In this document: in pieces, positions 3,427 to 17,407 of the stretch | Layout of the letters: every line of letters starts with the position of its first letter | Position numbering within the stretch: position 1 is the first letter of the stretch | Assembly (NCBI GenBank): GCA_026388735.1 | Contig: JAPLJG010000047.1 | Span: 1-42,755 of the forward strand | Length of the DNA stretch: 42,755 bases | From: Deltaproteobacteria bacterium | Lineage (GTDB): Bacteria; Desulfobacterota; Desulfobulbia; Desulfobulbales; Desulfurivibrionaceae | Reading direction: 5' to 3' | The notes under the pieces: generated by a model | The model's input: only the letters and a program-made list of their open reading frames with translations | Databases searched by the model: none | Told to the model about the DNA's origin: nothing | Translations under genes and position numbers: made by a program

Positions 3427-4014
3427 TTAGGCCGCACCACACAAAGGAAAAACCCCGTTTTCTATGGGTACGCTTTCGTTACCCTTAACCGCTCTTTTTG
3501 GGGTCTTTATGGGTACGCTTACGTTCGCGTGTATGGGTACGGAAACGTTCGCTACTTTTGTTTTTTTGTTGATATAGCCAAGAGTGCGAGCTTCTTTTTT
3601 TCGCGTGGCAATAACAACCCCCTCGCTCCACAACCGCCAATCTTCGGACAGGCCGTATATGGTCTTGTCGCGCTGAGCCTTGCCGCCTTTCCGAACGATC
3701 TTAATAAACCCTTTCTCAAGCAAATCATCAAACGCCCTTGAGATTCTTGGCCGCGTGATCCCTGCCGCTCTTGCCGCAAAACGTGATTTGTTTGGGTTTG
3801 AATAGGCGTTGTGGATGTTCTCAAGCTCGGCATAGGTCATCGTCAGGCTGTTTTGGTTCAAACAGTTGTGACCTTTGTCCATATCCCTCTTGCCAAGGAA
3901 TAGAACCAGGAGCTGAGGGGCAAAACCCTTGAGTGCAAGAAATGCGGGAGACATATATACTTCCCGCAATATGAATGTGCCGGATTTTAATTTGCCCTTT
4001 CGCATCTTGCCCAT
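3427..4014 (-). CDS. Winged-helix protein with repeated NVSVPI tail; possible replication or regulatory protein
   Basis: A 195-aa protein, ATG at 4014, three bases after the stop of the upstream gene, so probably translationally coupled. Residues about 60-125 form a winged helix: an Asn-rich lead-in, a recognition region around GITRPRISRAFDDLLEKG and a wing IKIVRKGGKA. The C-terminus carries NVSVPI, NVSVPI and NESVPI separated by short basic linkers, encoded by the iteron-like DNA repeats. Similar small HTH proteins with repeated tails occur in satellites and islands, but I cannot name a family. A plausible role is binding of the repeats, for autoregulation or replication of the excised element; this is inference. 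The gene ends the operon before the terminator at 3189-3220. Confidence 0.7.
   Translation of the reverse strand: MGKMRKGKLKSGTFILREVYMSPAFLALKGFAPQLLVLFLGKRDMDKGHNCLNQNSLTMTYAELENIHNAYSNPNKSRFAARAAGITRPRISRAFDDLLEKGFIKIVRKGGKAQRDKTIYGLSEDWRLWSEGVVIATRKKEARTLGYINKKTKVANVSVPIHANVSVPIKTPKRAVKGNESVPIENGVFPLCGAA
3463..3552 (+). repeat. Three iteron-like copies of TATGGGTACGNNNNCGTT
   Basis: Copies begin at 3463, 3508 and 3532. They lie in the 3' coding part of the winged-helix gene, where their minus strand encodes the repeated peptide NVSVPI (NESVPI in the first). They share about 15-18 positions. Together with the inverted copy at 3384-3404 they look like binding sites rather than a coding accident. 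Confidence 0.7.
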
Positions 4015-4017
4015 GCC

Positions 4018-4284
4018 TTAACCCCTTGCAGCCTCGGAACCACAACCGGCAGCCAGCCGATACCGGCCAATTTTAGATTTCACCCCATCTTCGGTAGTGT
4101 ATGGCTCCAACTCGCAAGTGATGTTGAATCCCAACCGCCGCATAGCCATGACCTCATCGGCAATATTCATGCAGCCGCATTTCTGGCGCAGATCAAAGCT
4201 CAAAATGCCTATGGGGTTTTCTGAGAGAGCAGCCACAATTCTTTGATGTCGTGGTGTCAATTCCCGTTGTTTTAGATTTATCAT
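4018..4284 (-). CDS. Small winged-helix protein (88 aa)
   Basis: The chosen ATG at 4284 shares an ATGA overlap with the stop of the upstream small ORF and has GGGGG 8 bases upstream. The protein begins MINLKQRELTPRHQRIVAAL, a typical winged-helix entry, and continues with a Cys-rich turn (KCGCMNIADEVMAMRRLG) that would be the recognition helix. It resembles short phage and satellite HTH proteins of unknown specificity. It lies between the small ORF at 4281-4475 and the repeat-tailed winged-helix gene, all in one tight operon. DNA binding is inferred from the fold only. Confidence 0.65.
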   Translation of the reverse strand: MINLKQRELTPRHQRIVAALSENPIGILSFDLRQKCGCMNIADEVMAMRRLGFNITCELEPYTTEDGVKSKIGRYRLAAGCGSEAARG

Positions 4285-8036: not shown

Positions 8037-8104
8037 GGACGACTCCTTATTCCATAATTATCACGGGGCAAGAGCTGAGAAAGAAAACGCCTGCTCCCCG
8101 AGCT

Positions 8105-8213
8105 GTAAGCGCTTGCAGGGTGGTGCAGATGCGCGAAAGAGGCCTGTACGCCATACACCAAGTATGCGGACAGGCCGATGACAAAGCAGATGCGCCGCCC
8201 TGCAAGCGCTTAC
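8105..8213 (+). repeat. Structured intergenic repeat, copy 1 (109 nt)
   Basis: The 16-bp outer arms (GTAAGCGCTTGCAGGG and its complement) are perfectly paired and extend with G-T pairs to GCA. Inside lie GCAGATGC on both strands (GA facing GA between GCA/TGC pairs), an asymmetric loop ending AAGA before GGCC and GATGACAA after GGCC, and an inner GGCCTGT hairpin with loop ACCAA. Copy 2 at 17300-17407 has the same architecture. It starts one base after the pgk stop codon (minus strand). Confidence 0.85.
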
Positions 8214-8214
8214 C

Positions 8215-9399
8215 TTAGTTTTTTGCTTCCAGGGCCTCAACCCCAGGCAGCTTCTTACCCTCCATCAGCATGAGGAATGCGCCGCCGCCCGTGGAGATGT
8301 AAGAGATGTTACTCGACTCACCAGCCTTATGCACCGCCACATCGGTGTCGCCCCCGCCGACAATGGTCAGGGCGTGGGAGCGGGCCACATGCTGGACCAT
8401 GGCCATGGTGCCCCGGGAAAAGGCGTCCATCTCGAAGGCGCCCATGGGGCCGTTCCAGATGATGGTCTTGGCAGACTCCATGGCCTCGGAAAAGAGCACC
8501 GTGGTGGCCGGGCCGATGTCGAGCACCATCCAGTCGGCCGGCACCTCCTGCACCGTTACCCGCTTGGATTCGGCCCGGGCCTCGAACCTGTCCGCGACGA
8601 TGCAGTCCACCGGCAGGTAGAGCTTGACCCCAAGGCGTTTGGCCTTGTTGAGCAGCTCCCGCGCCGTATCGAGCAGTTCATCCTCGACCTTGGATTTCCC
8701 CATATCATGGCCGATGCTTTTGAGAAAGGTATTGGCCATGGCCCCACCGATGACCATCTTGTCCACCCGGTCCATGAGGTTGTCCAGAGCGCCGAGCTTG
8801 CTCGACACCTTGGCCCCACCCACGATGGCCACCAGGGGCCGCATGGGGTTGCTCACCGAGCGGTGGAAATAATCCATCTCTTTTTGCAGAAGAAATCCGG
8901 CGGCACACTGCTCGACGAATTGGGTCACTCCCACCACAGAGGCATGGGCCCGATGCGCCACGGCAAAGGCATCGTTGATATAAATGTCGCAGAGGCTGGC
9001 CAACTGACTGGCAAAGCCCTCGTCGTTCTGCTGCTCCTCCGCATGGAAGCGCAGATTTTCCAGCAGAACCACACTGCCGGGCTGCATGGCCTCGACAATG
9101 GCCTTGGTTTCCGGGCCGATGCAATCAGGAGCCAGAACAACCTCCTTGTTCAGCAAACGGGAAAGGCGTTTGGCCGCAGGGGCCAGGCTGAACTGCGGTT
9201 TGCGCTCTCCCTTGGGCCGTCCCAGGTGGGACATGATAATGACCTTGGCATTTTCATCCAGGGCATAGTTGAGGGTGGGCAATACCCCGCGAATCCGGAT
9301 ATCATCGGTGATGTTCAGTTGTTCATCCAGCGGTACGTTGAAATCAACGCGGATGAGCAGCTTCTTTCCCTTGATGTCAAGATCCCGGATATTCTTCAT
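8215..9399 (-). CDS. pgk: Phosphoglycerate kinase
   Basis: A 394-aa cytosolic enzyme that makes ATP from 1,3-bisphosphoglycerate. The start is ATG 9399 ([11 protein letters not shown]), preceded by GGGAGGG at 8 bases; an in-frame upstream start would run into the ribosome site. Conserved parts: RVDFNVPL (N-terminal substrate loop), [34 protein letters not shown], the nucleotide-binding [10 protein letters not shown] and [15 protein letters not shown]. Length is normal. It follows rimI by 24 bases in the gap operon. The structured repeat follows directly after the stop. Confidence 0.98.
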
Positions 9400-15694: not shown

Positions 15695-16048
15695 GGGAGT
15701 GGGTGCATGGTCGCTGGCGGTGTATTGCCGCCAGAGGAAAGTCCGGACTCCGCAGGGCAAGGAGGTTCGTAACACGAACTGGGGGCGACCCCGAGGAAAG
15801 TGCCACAGAAAACAAACCGCCGGGCAACCGGTAAGGGTGAAAAGGTGGGGTAAGAGCCCACCGCTTGCGTGGCGACACGCAAGGCACGGCAAACCCCTCC
15901 TGGAGCAAAACCAAATAGGGAAGCGTTTGAGGGCGGCCCGCCCGAAGCTTCCGGGTAGGTTGCAAGAGATGCCGGGCAACCGGCATCCACAGAGAAATGA
16001 TCATGGCCCCTGCAAGGGGGTACAGAATCCGGCTTATAGCCCACTCCC
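15695..16048 (+). ncRNA. rnpB: RNase P RNA, bacterial class A
   Basis: Catalytic RNA that trims tRNA 5' leaders. The ends pair as GGGAGTGGG/CCCACTCCC (P1). Universal core pieces are visible: GAGGAAAGTCCGGACTCC (P3/P4 region), the AACACGAACT loop region, GAGGAAAGTGCCACAGAAA, GGTAAGGGTGAAAAGG and the closing ATCCGGCTTATAG (P4/3' side). The length of about 354 nt is normal. A T-run follows at 16049-16055 and acts as terminator. An open frame passes through it but is not coding. Confidence 0.97.
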
Positions 16049-16064
16049 TTTTTTTATCTCTCAC

Positions 16065-17243
16065 ATGCAGAAAGCAACAGCGATCATTGCCGCAGGCGGC
16101 GCAGGCCTGCGCATGGGAACCACCACCCCCAAGCAGTTCAGCGAACTGCTTGGCGTTCCCCTCCTGATCCACACCATCCGCGCCTTTCGTCAGGTTCCCG
16201 CCATCGGCGCCATCATCGTGGTGGCCCCGGCAGAATACCGGGAGCTGACCAGCGCCCTTTTGTCCCAGTACCAACTTGATGACCATTGCACGGTGGTGAG
16301 CGGCGGCAAGCTCCGCCAGGATTCGGTGCGCATCGGCCTGGCCCAGGTGGCGGGGGATTGCCCCCTGGTGGCAGTACACGACGGCGCCCGGCCCCTCATC
16401 ACCCCCAAAGACATCCAGCGGTGCCGCGATGCGGCCGCTATCCATGGCGCCGCGATCATGGCTGTGCCGGTGAAGGATACCCTCAAGGCCGTGGGTGCGG
16501 ACACCGCCATCCGCCACACCGTGGAACGCGAATCCCTCTGGCAAGCGCAGACCCCGCAAGTTGTCCGCACCGACCTGCTGAAAGAGGCCTTTGCCAAGGC
16601 TGAGCAAGACGATTTTATCGGCACCGACGAGGCTTCAATCCTCGAACACGGCGGCTGGCCGGTCATGGTGGTGGAGGGCTCGGAAACCAATCTCAAGATC
16701 ACCCGCCCGGATGATCTGCCCATGGCGGAGGCCATCCTCATGCAGAAACAACCATCCCCGCAGATGCGCATCGGCCATGGCTTTGACGCCCACCGTCTAG
16801 TCGCGGGCAGGCCGCTGGTCCTGGGCGGCATGAAAATCCCCCACGAACTGGGATTGCTGGGCCACTCGGATGCCGATGTCCTTACCCATGCCCTGTGCGA
16901 CGCCATCCTGGGCGCCATCGGCGCTGGCGACATCGGCCGCCACTTCCCGGACAGCGATCCGCAGTACAAGGGTATCTCCAGCATCAAGCTGCTTGCGCAG
17001 GTGATCGGCCTGGCAGCGGCAAAACAGTTCCGCCTGGCCAACGCCGACATCACCGTGGTGGCCGAGCGGCCCAAGCTCGCCTCCCATTTTCCGGCCATGC
17101 AAAAAATCCTTGCCGAGGCCTGCCAAGTTGAACCCAATGCCATCAACCTCAAGGCCAGCACCACGGAAAAAATGGGCTACACCGGTCGCGAGGAAGGGAT
17201 CAGCGCCCACGCCGTGGTCCTGATGGCAAACCAGCCGCACTAG
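16065..17243 (+). CDS. ispDF: Bifunctional IspD/IspF (MEP pathway)
   Basis: A 392-aa fusion carrying two steps of isoprenoid synthesis. Residues 1-230 are IspD, 2-C-methyl-D-erythritol 4-phosphate cytidylyltransferase: IIAAGGAGLRMG nucleotide loop, AVHDGARPL, and the TDEASILE region. From about 233 (MRIGHGFDAHRL) it is IspF, the 2,4-cyclodiphosphate synthase: zinc ligands DAH and LGHSDADVLTHA, and TTEKMGYTGREEGI. In many bacteria these are separate genes. ATG 16065 must be the start because the G-rich loop follows at once, yet it lies only 17 bases beyond the rnpB 3' end, with no Shine-Dalgarno. Confidence 0.96.
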   Translation: MQKATAIIAAGGAGLRMGTTTPKQFSELLGVPLLIHTIRAFRQVPAIGAIIVVAPAEYRELTSALLSQYQLDDHCTVVSGGKLRQDSVRIGLAQVAGDCPLVAVHDGARPLITPKDIQRCRDAAAIHGAAIMAVPVKDTLKAVGADTAIRHTVERESLWQAQTPQVVRTDLLKEAFAKAEQDDFIGTDEASILEHGGWPVMVVEGSETNLKITRPDDLPMAEAILMQKQPSPQMRIGHGFDAHRLVAGRPLVLGGMKIPHELGLLGHSDADVLTHALCDAILGAIGAGDIGRHFPDSDPQYKGISSIKLLAQVIGLAAAKQFRLANADITVVAERPKLASHFPAMQKILAEACQVEPNAINLKASTTEKMGYTGREEGISAHAVVLMANQPH

Positions 17244-17299
17244 ACGGTTCAAAAGGGAATGAACATCCAACACGAAACCGGAAAAATGATACCCAAAAA

Positions 17300-17407
17300 C
17301 TATAACGGTCAGCAGTGCTACAGATGCTAGGAAGAGGCCTGCGAAGTGTGCTGCTGCACACGAACAGGCCGATGACAACGCAGATGTGGTGCTGCTGACC
17401 GTTATAG
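17300..17407 (+). repeat. Structured intergenic repeat, copy 2 (108 nt)
   Basis: Same architecture as 8105-8213. The outer arms CTATAACGGTCAGCAG and their complement share no sequence with copy 1 yet are perfectly paired. The inner parts are conserved: CAGATGC, GAAGAGGCC, GGCCGATGACAA and GCAGATG. Where copy 1 has GCA/TGC flanking the GA/GA loop, copy 2 has ACA/TGT, a compensatory change. The inner hairpin GTGTGC/GCACAC also differs. The right arm includes the thpR stop codon. Confidence 0.85.

Follow-up and report, generated by a model that had tools for sequence, protein, structure and literature searches.

The two folded repeats in the window (the whole stretch of DNA analysed, 42,755 nucleotides) are nonautonomous IS66-type MITEs carrying a structured hairpin, and this identity, together with a constrained fold, is put forward jointly with high confidence. 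The hairpin occupies about two thirds of the unit, and its shaping by plus-strand selection, with conserved G.A and wobble pairs, is shown statistically. The mobile nature of the repeats, with their target duplications, was overlooked in the preliminary description.

Structured hairpins in the window

Both copies are located and fold as first described, with plus-strand folding energies of -74.8 and -67.8 kcal/mol and z-scores of -12.9 and -11.6 for copies 1 and 2, respectively, and with 0 of 200 shuffles as good. The minus-strand folds of both are weaker by 10-13 kcal/mol, since conserved U.G/G.U wobbles and tandem G.A pairs in the plus-strand stem turn into A.C and U.C mismatches there. The following features were assigned (model R1 is described below).

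8054-8213, plus strand: whole inserted unit of copy 1 (probable; about 160 bp; left boundary inferred)
8105-8213, plus strand: structured hairpin of copy 1 (model R1, 108 bits)
8105-8120, plus strand: outer arm of copy 1, 5′ side, GTAAGCGCTTGCAGGG
8125-8132, plus strand: 5′ side of the tandem G.A (2x2 purine) loop of copy 1, GCAGATGC
8139-8144, plus strand: kink-turn-like strand GA-GGCC of copy 1
8173-8181, plus strand: kink-turn-like strand GGCC-GAT-GA of copy 1
8186-8192, plus strand: 3′ side of the tandem G.A loop of copy 1, GCAGATG
8198-8213, plus strand: outer arm of copy 1, 3′ side, CCCTGCAAGCGCTTAC, doubling as the right end of the mobile unit
17259-17407, plus strand: whole inserted unit of copy 2 (probable; about 149 bp; left end badly decayed, boundary uncertain)
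17300-17407, plus strand: structured hairpin of copy 2 (model R1, 111 bits)
17334-17339, plus strand: kink-turn-like strand GA-GGCC of copy 2
17367-17375, plus strand: kink-turn-like strand GGCC-GAT-GA of copy 2

Copy 1 lies between the tpiA start (8036, minus strand) and the pgk stop (8215-8217, minus strand), its right end one base from the latter, and copy 2 lies between ispDF (ending at 17243, plus strand) and thpR (minus strand), with the thpR stop inside its terminal end. In each copy the outer arms are complementary to each other but unlike those of the other copy, and GCA/TGC in copy 1 and ACA/TGT in copy 2 flank the GA/GA loop, as reported. The arms had been called unrelated; they are actually variants of a transposon end, GTAAC..TTCAGCAG / GTAAGCG..ACAGGG. 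The sequence ATAATTATCACGGGG at 8054 resembles GTAACTGATCACAGG, the left end of 160-bp units of the same subfamily, and the target duplication of copy 1 is decayed (CTTATTCC / CTTAGTTT); at neither window copy is a duplication clear, and in both the left terminal repeat is decayed. Elsewhere in the window, positions 15695-16052 hold an RNase P RNA of bacterial class A, directly upstream of ispDF and overlapping its longest ORF reading.

The kink-turn proposed in the preliminary description was retained in part. Like kink-turn RNAs, both window copies have a 3-nt loop followed by tandem G.A beside a GC stem, the signature being GGCC-GAT-GA opposite GA-GGCC. Unlike in kink-turn RNAs, this combination is not conserved across the element family: in relatives it is lost or altered, with GAT-AA in the G197 copies, GAC-AA in class III and a 3x3 loop in G187. 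Judged from these sequences, a kink-turn would fit the window copies only and is not a defining feature of the family.

Inserted unit, ends and target duplications

When orthologous flanks were compared, empty sites in related genomes were found to lack both the hairpin and a left-hand segment of about 45 bp, which starts with its own GTAAC-type end. The inserted unit is thus of about 149-160 bp, too short for a transposase gene, and consists of a left GTAA end, a spacer of about 30 nt and the hairpin, the right arm of which forms the opposite end. Recent units (151-160 bp) are bounded by GTAAC...GTTAC, with GTAACTATCCAGC as the terminal inverted repeat at both ends, and by exact 8-bp repeats (for example AAATCAAG, TTTTTTTT, ACGGCAAC and CCGCTCAG). 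About 57 units have at least 7 of 8 duplicated bases, most of them 8 of 8, and 151 exact copies of the end GTAACTATCCAGC are present in the genus mate G197. At several loci the hairpin is interrupted within units with exact or near-exact duplications, and therefore an intact hairpin is not strictly required for movement.

These boundaries bear on a REP-type origin, in which the palindrome would be moved by a RAYT (Y1) transposase. REP elements are likewise extragenic palindromes in many copies, carrying a GTAG or CGTC tag (PMC3733652), and the present repeats also abut stop codons. However, these repeats differ from REP elements (PMC3733652) in size (about 150 bp, not 20-40 bp), in the tetranucleotide (GTAA) and in having target duplications; the 8-bp duplications and IS66-type ends refute a REP nature for the GTAA-ended classes, and for the repeats as a whole we give it almost no weight.

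An intact IS of 1,729 bp in another family of the order (L163) has ends GTAACTATCCAGCTTGCGCT / GTAACTATCCAGCTCAAAAA, a perfect duplication GAATATTT and a single ORF for one IS66-family transposase, and shares the end GTAACTATCCAGC with the repeats; the R1 hairpin was not found within it. Relatives of its transposase lie in IS that end in GTAACTATTCAGC, GTAACTACTCAGC or GTAACTGTTCAGG and are flanked by exact 8-bp duplications, and ends matching those of the repeats are carried by L163 and several of L264-L279. A cognate transposase in the same genome is usual, not essential, for an IS66-type MITE; a search of 17 genomes of the window's genus found no IS66 transposase, though some of them hold recent insertions with exact duplications. 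The element would be mobilised in trans by an IS66-type (ISBst12-group) transposase.

In L195 (G196:C58), inverted copies of the element at 1023-1256 and 3995-4147 flank the cytochrome bd genes cydAB. Each has its own exact 8-bp duplication (TCTTAATC and AAAAAAAG, respectively), which indicates two separate insertions despite the composite look. A composite IS between the two G196 copies was rejected, the interval carrying cydAB and no transposase.

Copy number and distribution

A covariance model, R1, was built from 38 diverse copies. The search with such a model proposed in the preliminary description recovered further copies in the same genome, in the order and in a sample of the phylum. 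In the 3-Mb genome of the window R1 gave 68 matches, 6 of which are the reverse strand of the same palindromes, leaving about 62 dispersed places instead of a pair. Matches were found in 152 of 258 genomes and 53 of 69 genera of the order, the counts per genome being at-least values in many genomes, and in 36 of 395 genomes of the phylum sample, 27 of them outside the order. In a scan of named genomes, matches occurred only in MAGs titled Desulfobulbaceae, Desulfobacterales, Deltaproteobacteria or unclassified proteobacteria, and no match was found in the viral contigs, plasmids and phages searched. As first stated, no named family was recognised: Rfam gave no match for the window copies at gathering or permissive thresholds, weak ones lying far below the gathering score.

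Riboswitch, intrinsic terminator, REP and attC were considered as identities and rejected, as was a hammerhead-like ribozyme, for which both GAUGA and GAAA can be found but, by eye, their order around the one stem is wrong.

Constraint on the fold

Among the 38 copies, which are related and give non-independent pair counts, 27 of 37 pairs are changed on both sides and pairing is kept in 95% of cells; none of 500 shuffles does as well, and sliding the partner positions abolishes the pair covariation. The 13-15 outermost pairs are transposon ends and can covary merely from both ends suiting one transposase; terminal repeats that vary to match different transposases account for part of the covariation in the outer arms. 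Because the outer arms double as transposon ends, their covariation alone is insufficient for selection on RNA, and the argument for a functional fold rests on the inner stems, the strand bias, old copies, same-locus compensation and the shared core. To this extent the selection on a folded molecule that the preliminary description proposed holds for the plus-strand fold, by inner-stem covariation and the excess of G.U over A.C.

In the inner stems, all 7 upper-stem pairs vary on both sides in distant copies (alignment A3, fitted to the model). On the plus strand, G.U exceeds A.C by 41 to 16 in the outer arms when column 9 is left out (p 0.001) and by 118 to 22 in distant copies. Old copies that have lost the GTAA ends (L030, L046 and L083) are still perfectly paired, and orthologous copies from different genomes have diverged through several compensated changes (L042/L133, L028/L140, and L046 vs L143).

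The perfection of the arms may also be ascribed to quasi-palindrome correction by template switching, a mutational process that would maintain them with no selection; they are indeed near-perfect even where the sequence is unique to a single copy. However, the tandem G.U and G.A mismatches of the same stem are left uncorrected and the wobbles are biased to one strand, which that process does not predict, and we consider it improbable.

Three further structural variants were noted. At one locus (L023 vs L089) the hairpin apex has been exchanged for one of another type, with flanks and lower stem alike, which suggests gene conversion between copies. In L201 (about 660-830) a second repeat, TGCACCCAAAGGGTATAAGTTTCGTTTGAGCAGG..GCTGCTCAACTCAGCTATA, stands alone in tandem, and it is also found at fixed points within the hairpin loops of L203, L205 and L195. 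In L058, L070, L101, L110 and L119 a three-way junction is formed by an additional hairpin, TGTCAATCGTCGGCAGAAGTGCCGAC, inserted to one side or the other of the internal loop.

The same core with other ends

In other orders the same core lies within CCCGGATTATGCA-ended units of about 254 bp that have 5-bp duplications (e.g. ATTAT, TTCAT and ATAAA) and R1 scores of about 60-71 bits; in one genome a degenerate IS of 1,672 bp has CCCGGATTATGCA ends and IS1380-family transposase fragments. A third type, MITEs of about 200 bp with ends CCTAAATTGAGCG, carries the same core (L225, L246 and L247; G387), with a duplication AAAAT in L225. One core common to MITEs with IS66-type and IS1380-type ends is thereby shown; no report is known of one core common to MITEs of two transposase families.

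This sharing is one of four observations against an ordinary MITE whose arms pair merely as transposon ends and whose body is passive cargo, the fold having no function; the others are the covariation of inner-stem pairs outside the ends, the perfect pairing of the old copies without GTAA ends and the excess of G.U on one strand. Such an element agrees with the IS66-type nature of the outer arms, with the two different and unrelated cores behind identical IS66-type ends in G197 and with the interruption of hairpins at different loci, and overall is regarded as unlikely.

Insertion position and orientation

Gene context was taken from a simple codon-based gene-finding script. A convergent gene lies on the right in 81 of 116 copies (p 2e-5), its stop usually at -4 to +7 bases from the element end, though single distances may be off. 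The terminal GTTAC reads as TAA on the other strand; most surviving copies have their right end at a stop codon, which the end itself can provide as TAA. For intact hairpins in tandem contexts, the plus strand is antisense to the flanking operon mRNA in 57 of 73 (57:16); units with clear duplications are antisense or sense in a ratio of about 15:13 by hand count (Fisher p 0.026 against 57:16), which suggests that orientation was sorted after insertion, the compared sets overlapping and being differently chosen.

A cis-regulatory RNA (riboswitch, attenuator or terminator) of the adjoining genes might be expected of an intergenic sequence that is stable, structured and close to stop codons. The apparently unrelated genes next to the roughly 62 copies, the antisense majority just given, the lack of a consistent T-tract (by eye) and the orthologues with empty sites all speak against it, and its probability is put very low.

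Proposed role of the hairpin

MITE bodies are normally taken as arbitrary remnants of the parent IS. Here, one folded body, with covarying inner stems and a strand bias, recurs across a phylum under ends that belong to two transposase families, and its recurrence under unrelated transposon ends suggests that the hairpin has a role of its own. From these sequence patterns a plus-strand RNA mechanism retained by selection is tentatively predicted: the plus strand, as RNA, would fold into a rigid hairpin that would be bound by a host factor or ribonuclease, and this binding would favour spread of the element or soften the effect of its insertion, so that the fold would outlive mobility. As the plus strand is mostly antisense in tandem operons, activity would lie with an antisense transcript or with convergent read-through, not with the operon mRNA. 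The constraint would act on RNA rather than on single-stranded DNA, and the fold may have a role in transposition, RNA processing or host protection; since interrupted hairpins recur at several loci, transposition seems not to require the fold absolutely, and a role after insertion, or one through a host factor, is slightly preferred. Should the RNA be real, it could reveal host machinery exploited by a bacterial selfish element. A caution also follows, in that strong covariation in multicopy palindromes can be partly attributable to matched transposon ends.

It is possible, if doubtful, that the hairpin is a vehicle-independent mobile structured-RNA module that has passed between IS66-type and IS1380-type MITEs and persists across Desulfobacterota through an interaction of its plus-strand RNA with a conserved host factor. 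Such a module would be the bacterial equivalent of a SINE-like RNA passenger.

Comparison with known systems

In sequence the repeats presumably differ from ERIC, Correia/NEMIS, QMITE2 and RPE. In their mobile ends they resemble the ISBst12 group of the IS66 family (ISDge4, ends GTGACTACTCAGCA / GTAACTGCTCAGCA with an 8-bp repeat, PMC12898284), sharing ends of 13-14 bp of the form GTAAC(T)..TCAGC and the 8-bp target duplication; unlike that family they are without a transposase gene, and the intact L163 IS is without the hairpin. As structured bacterial MITEs they resemble ERIC, Correia/NEMIS, QMITE2 and RPE (reviewed in PMC10969869), which can change mRNA fate via RNases: like these they are short, multicopy, palindromic and intergenic, with transcripts predicted to fold, and unlike these they belong with another mobilising family.
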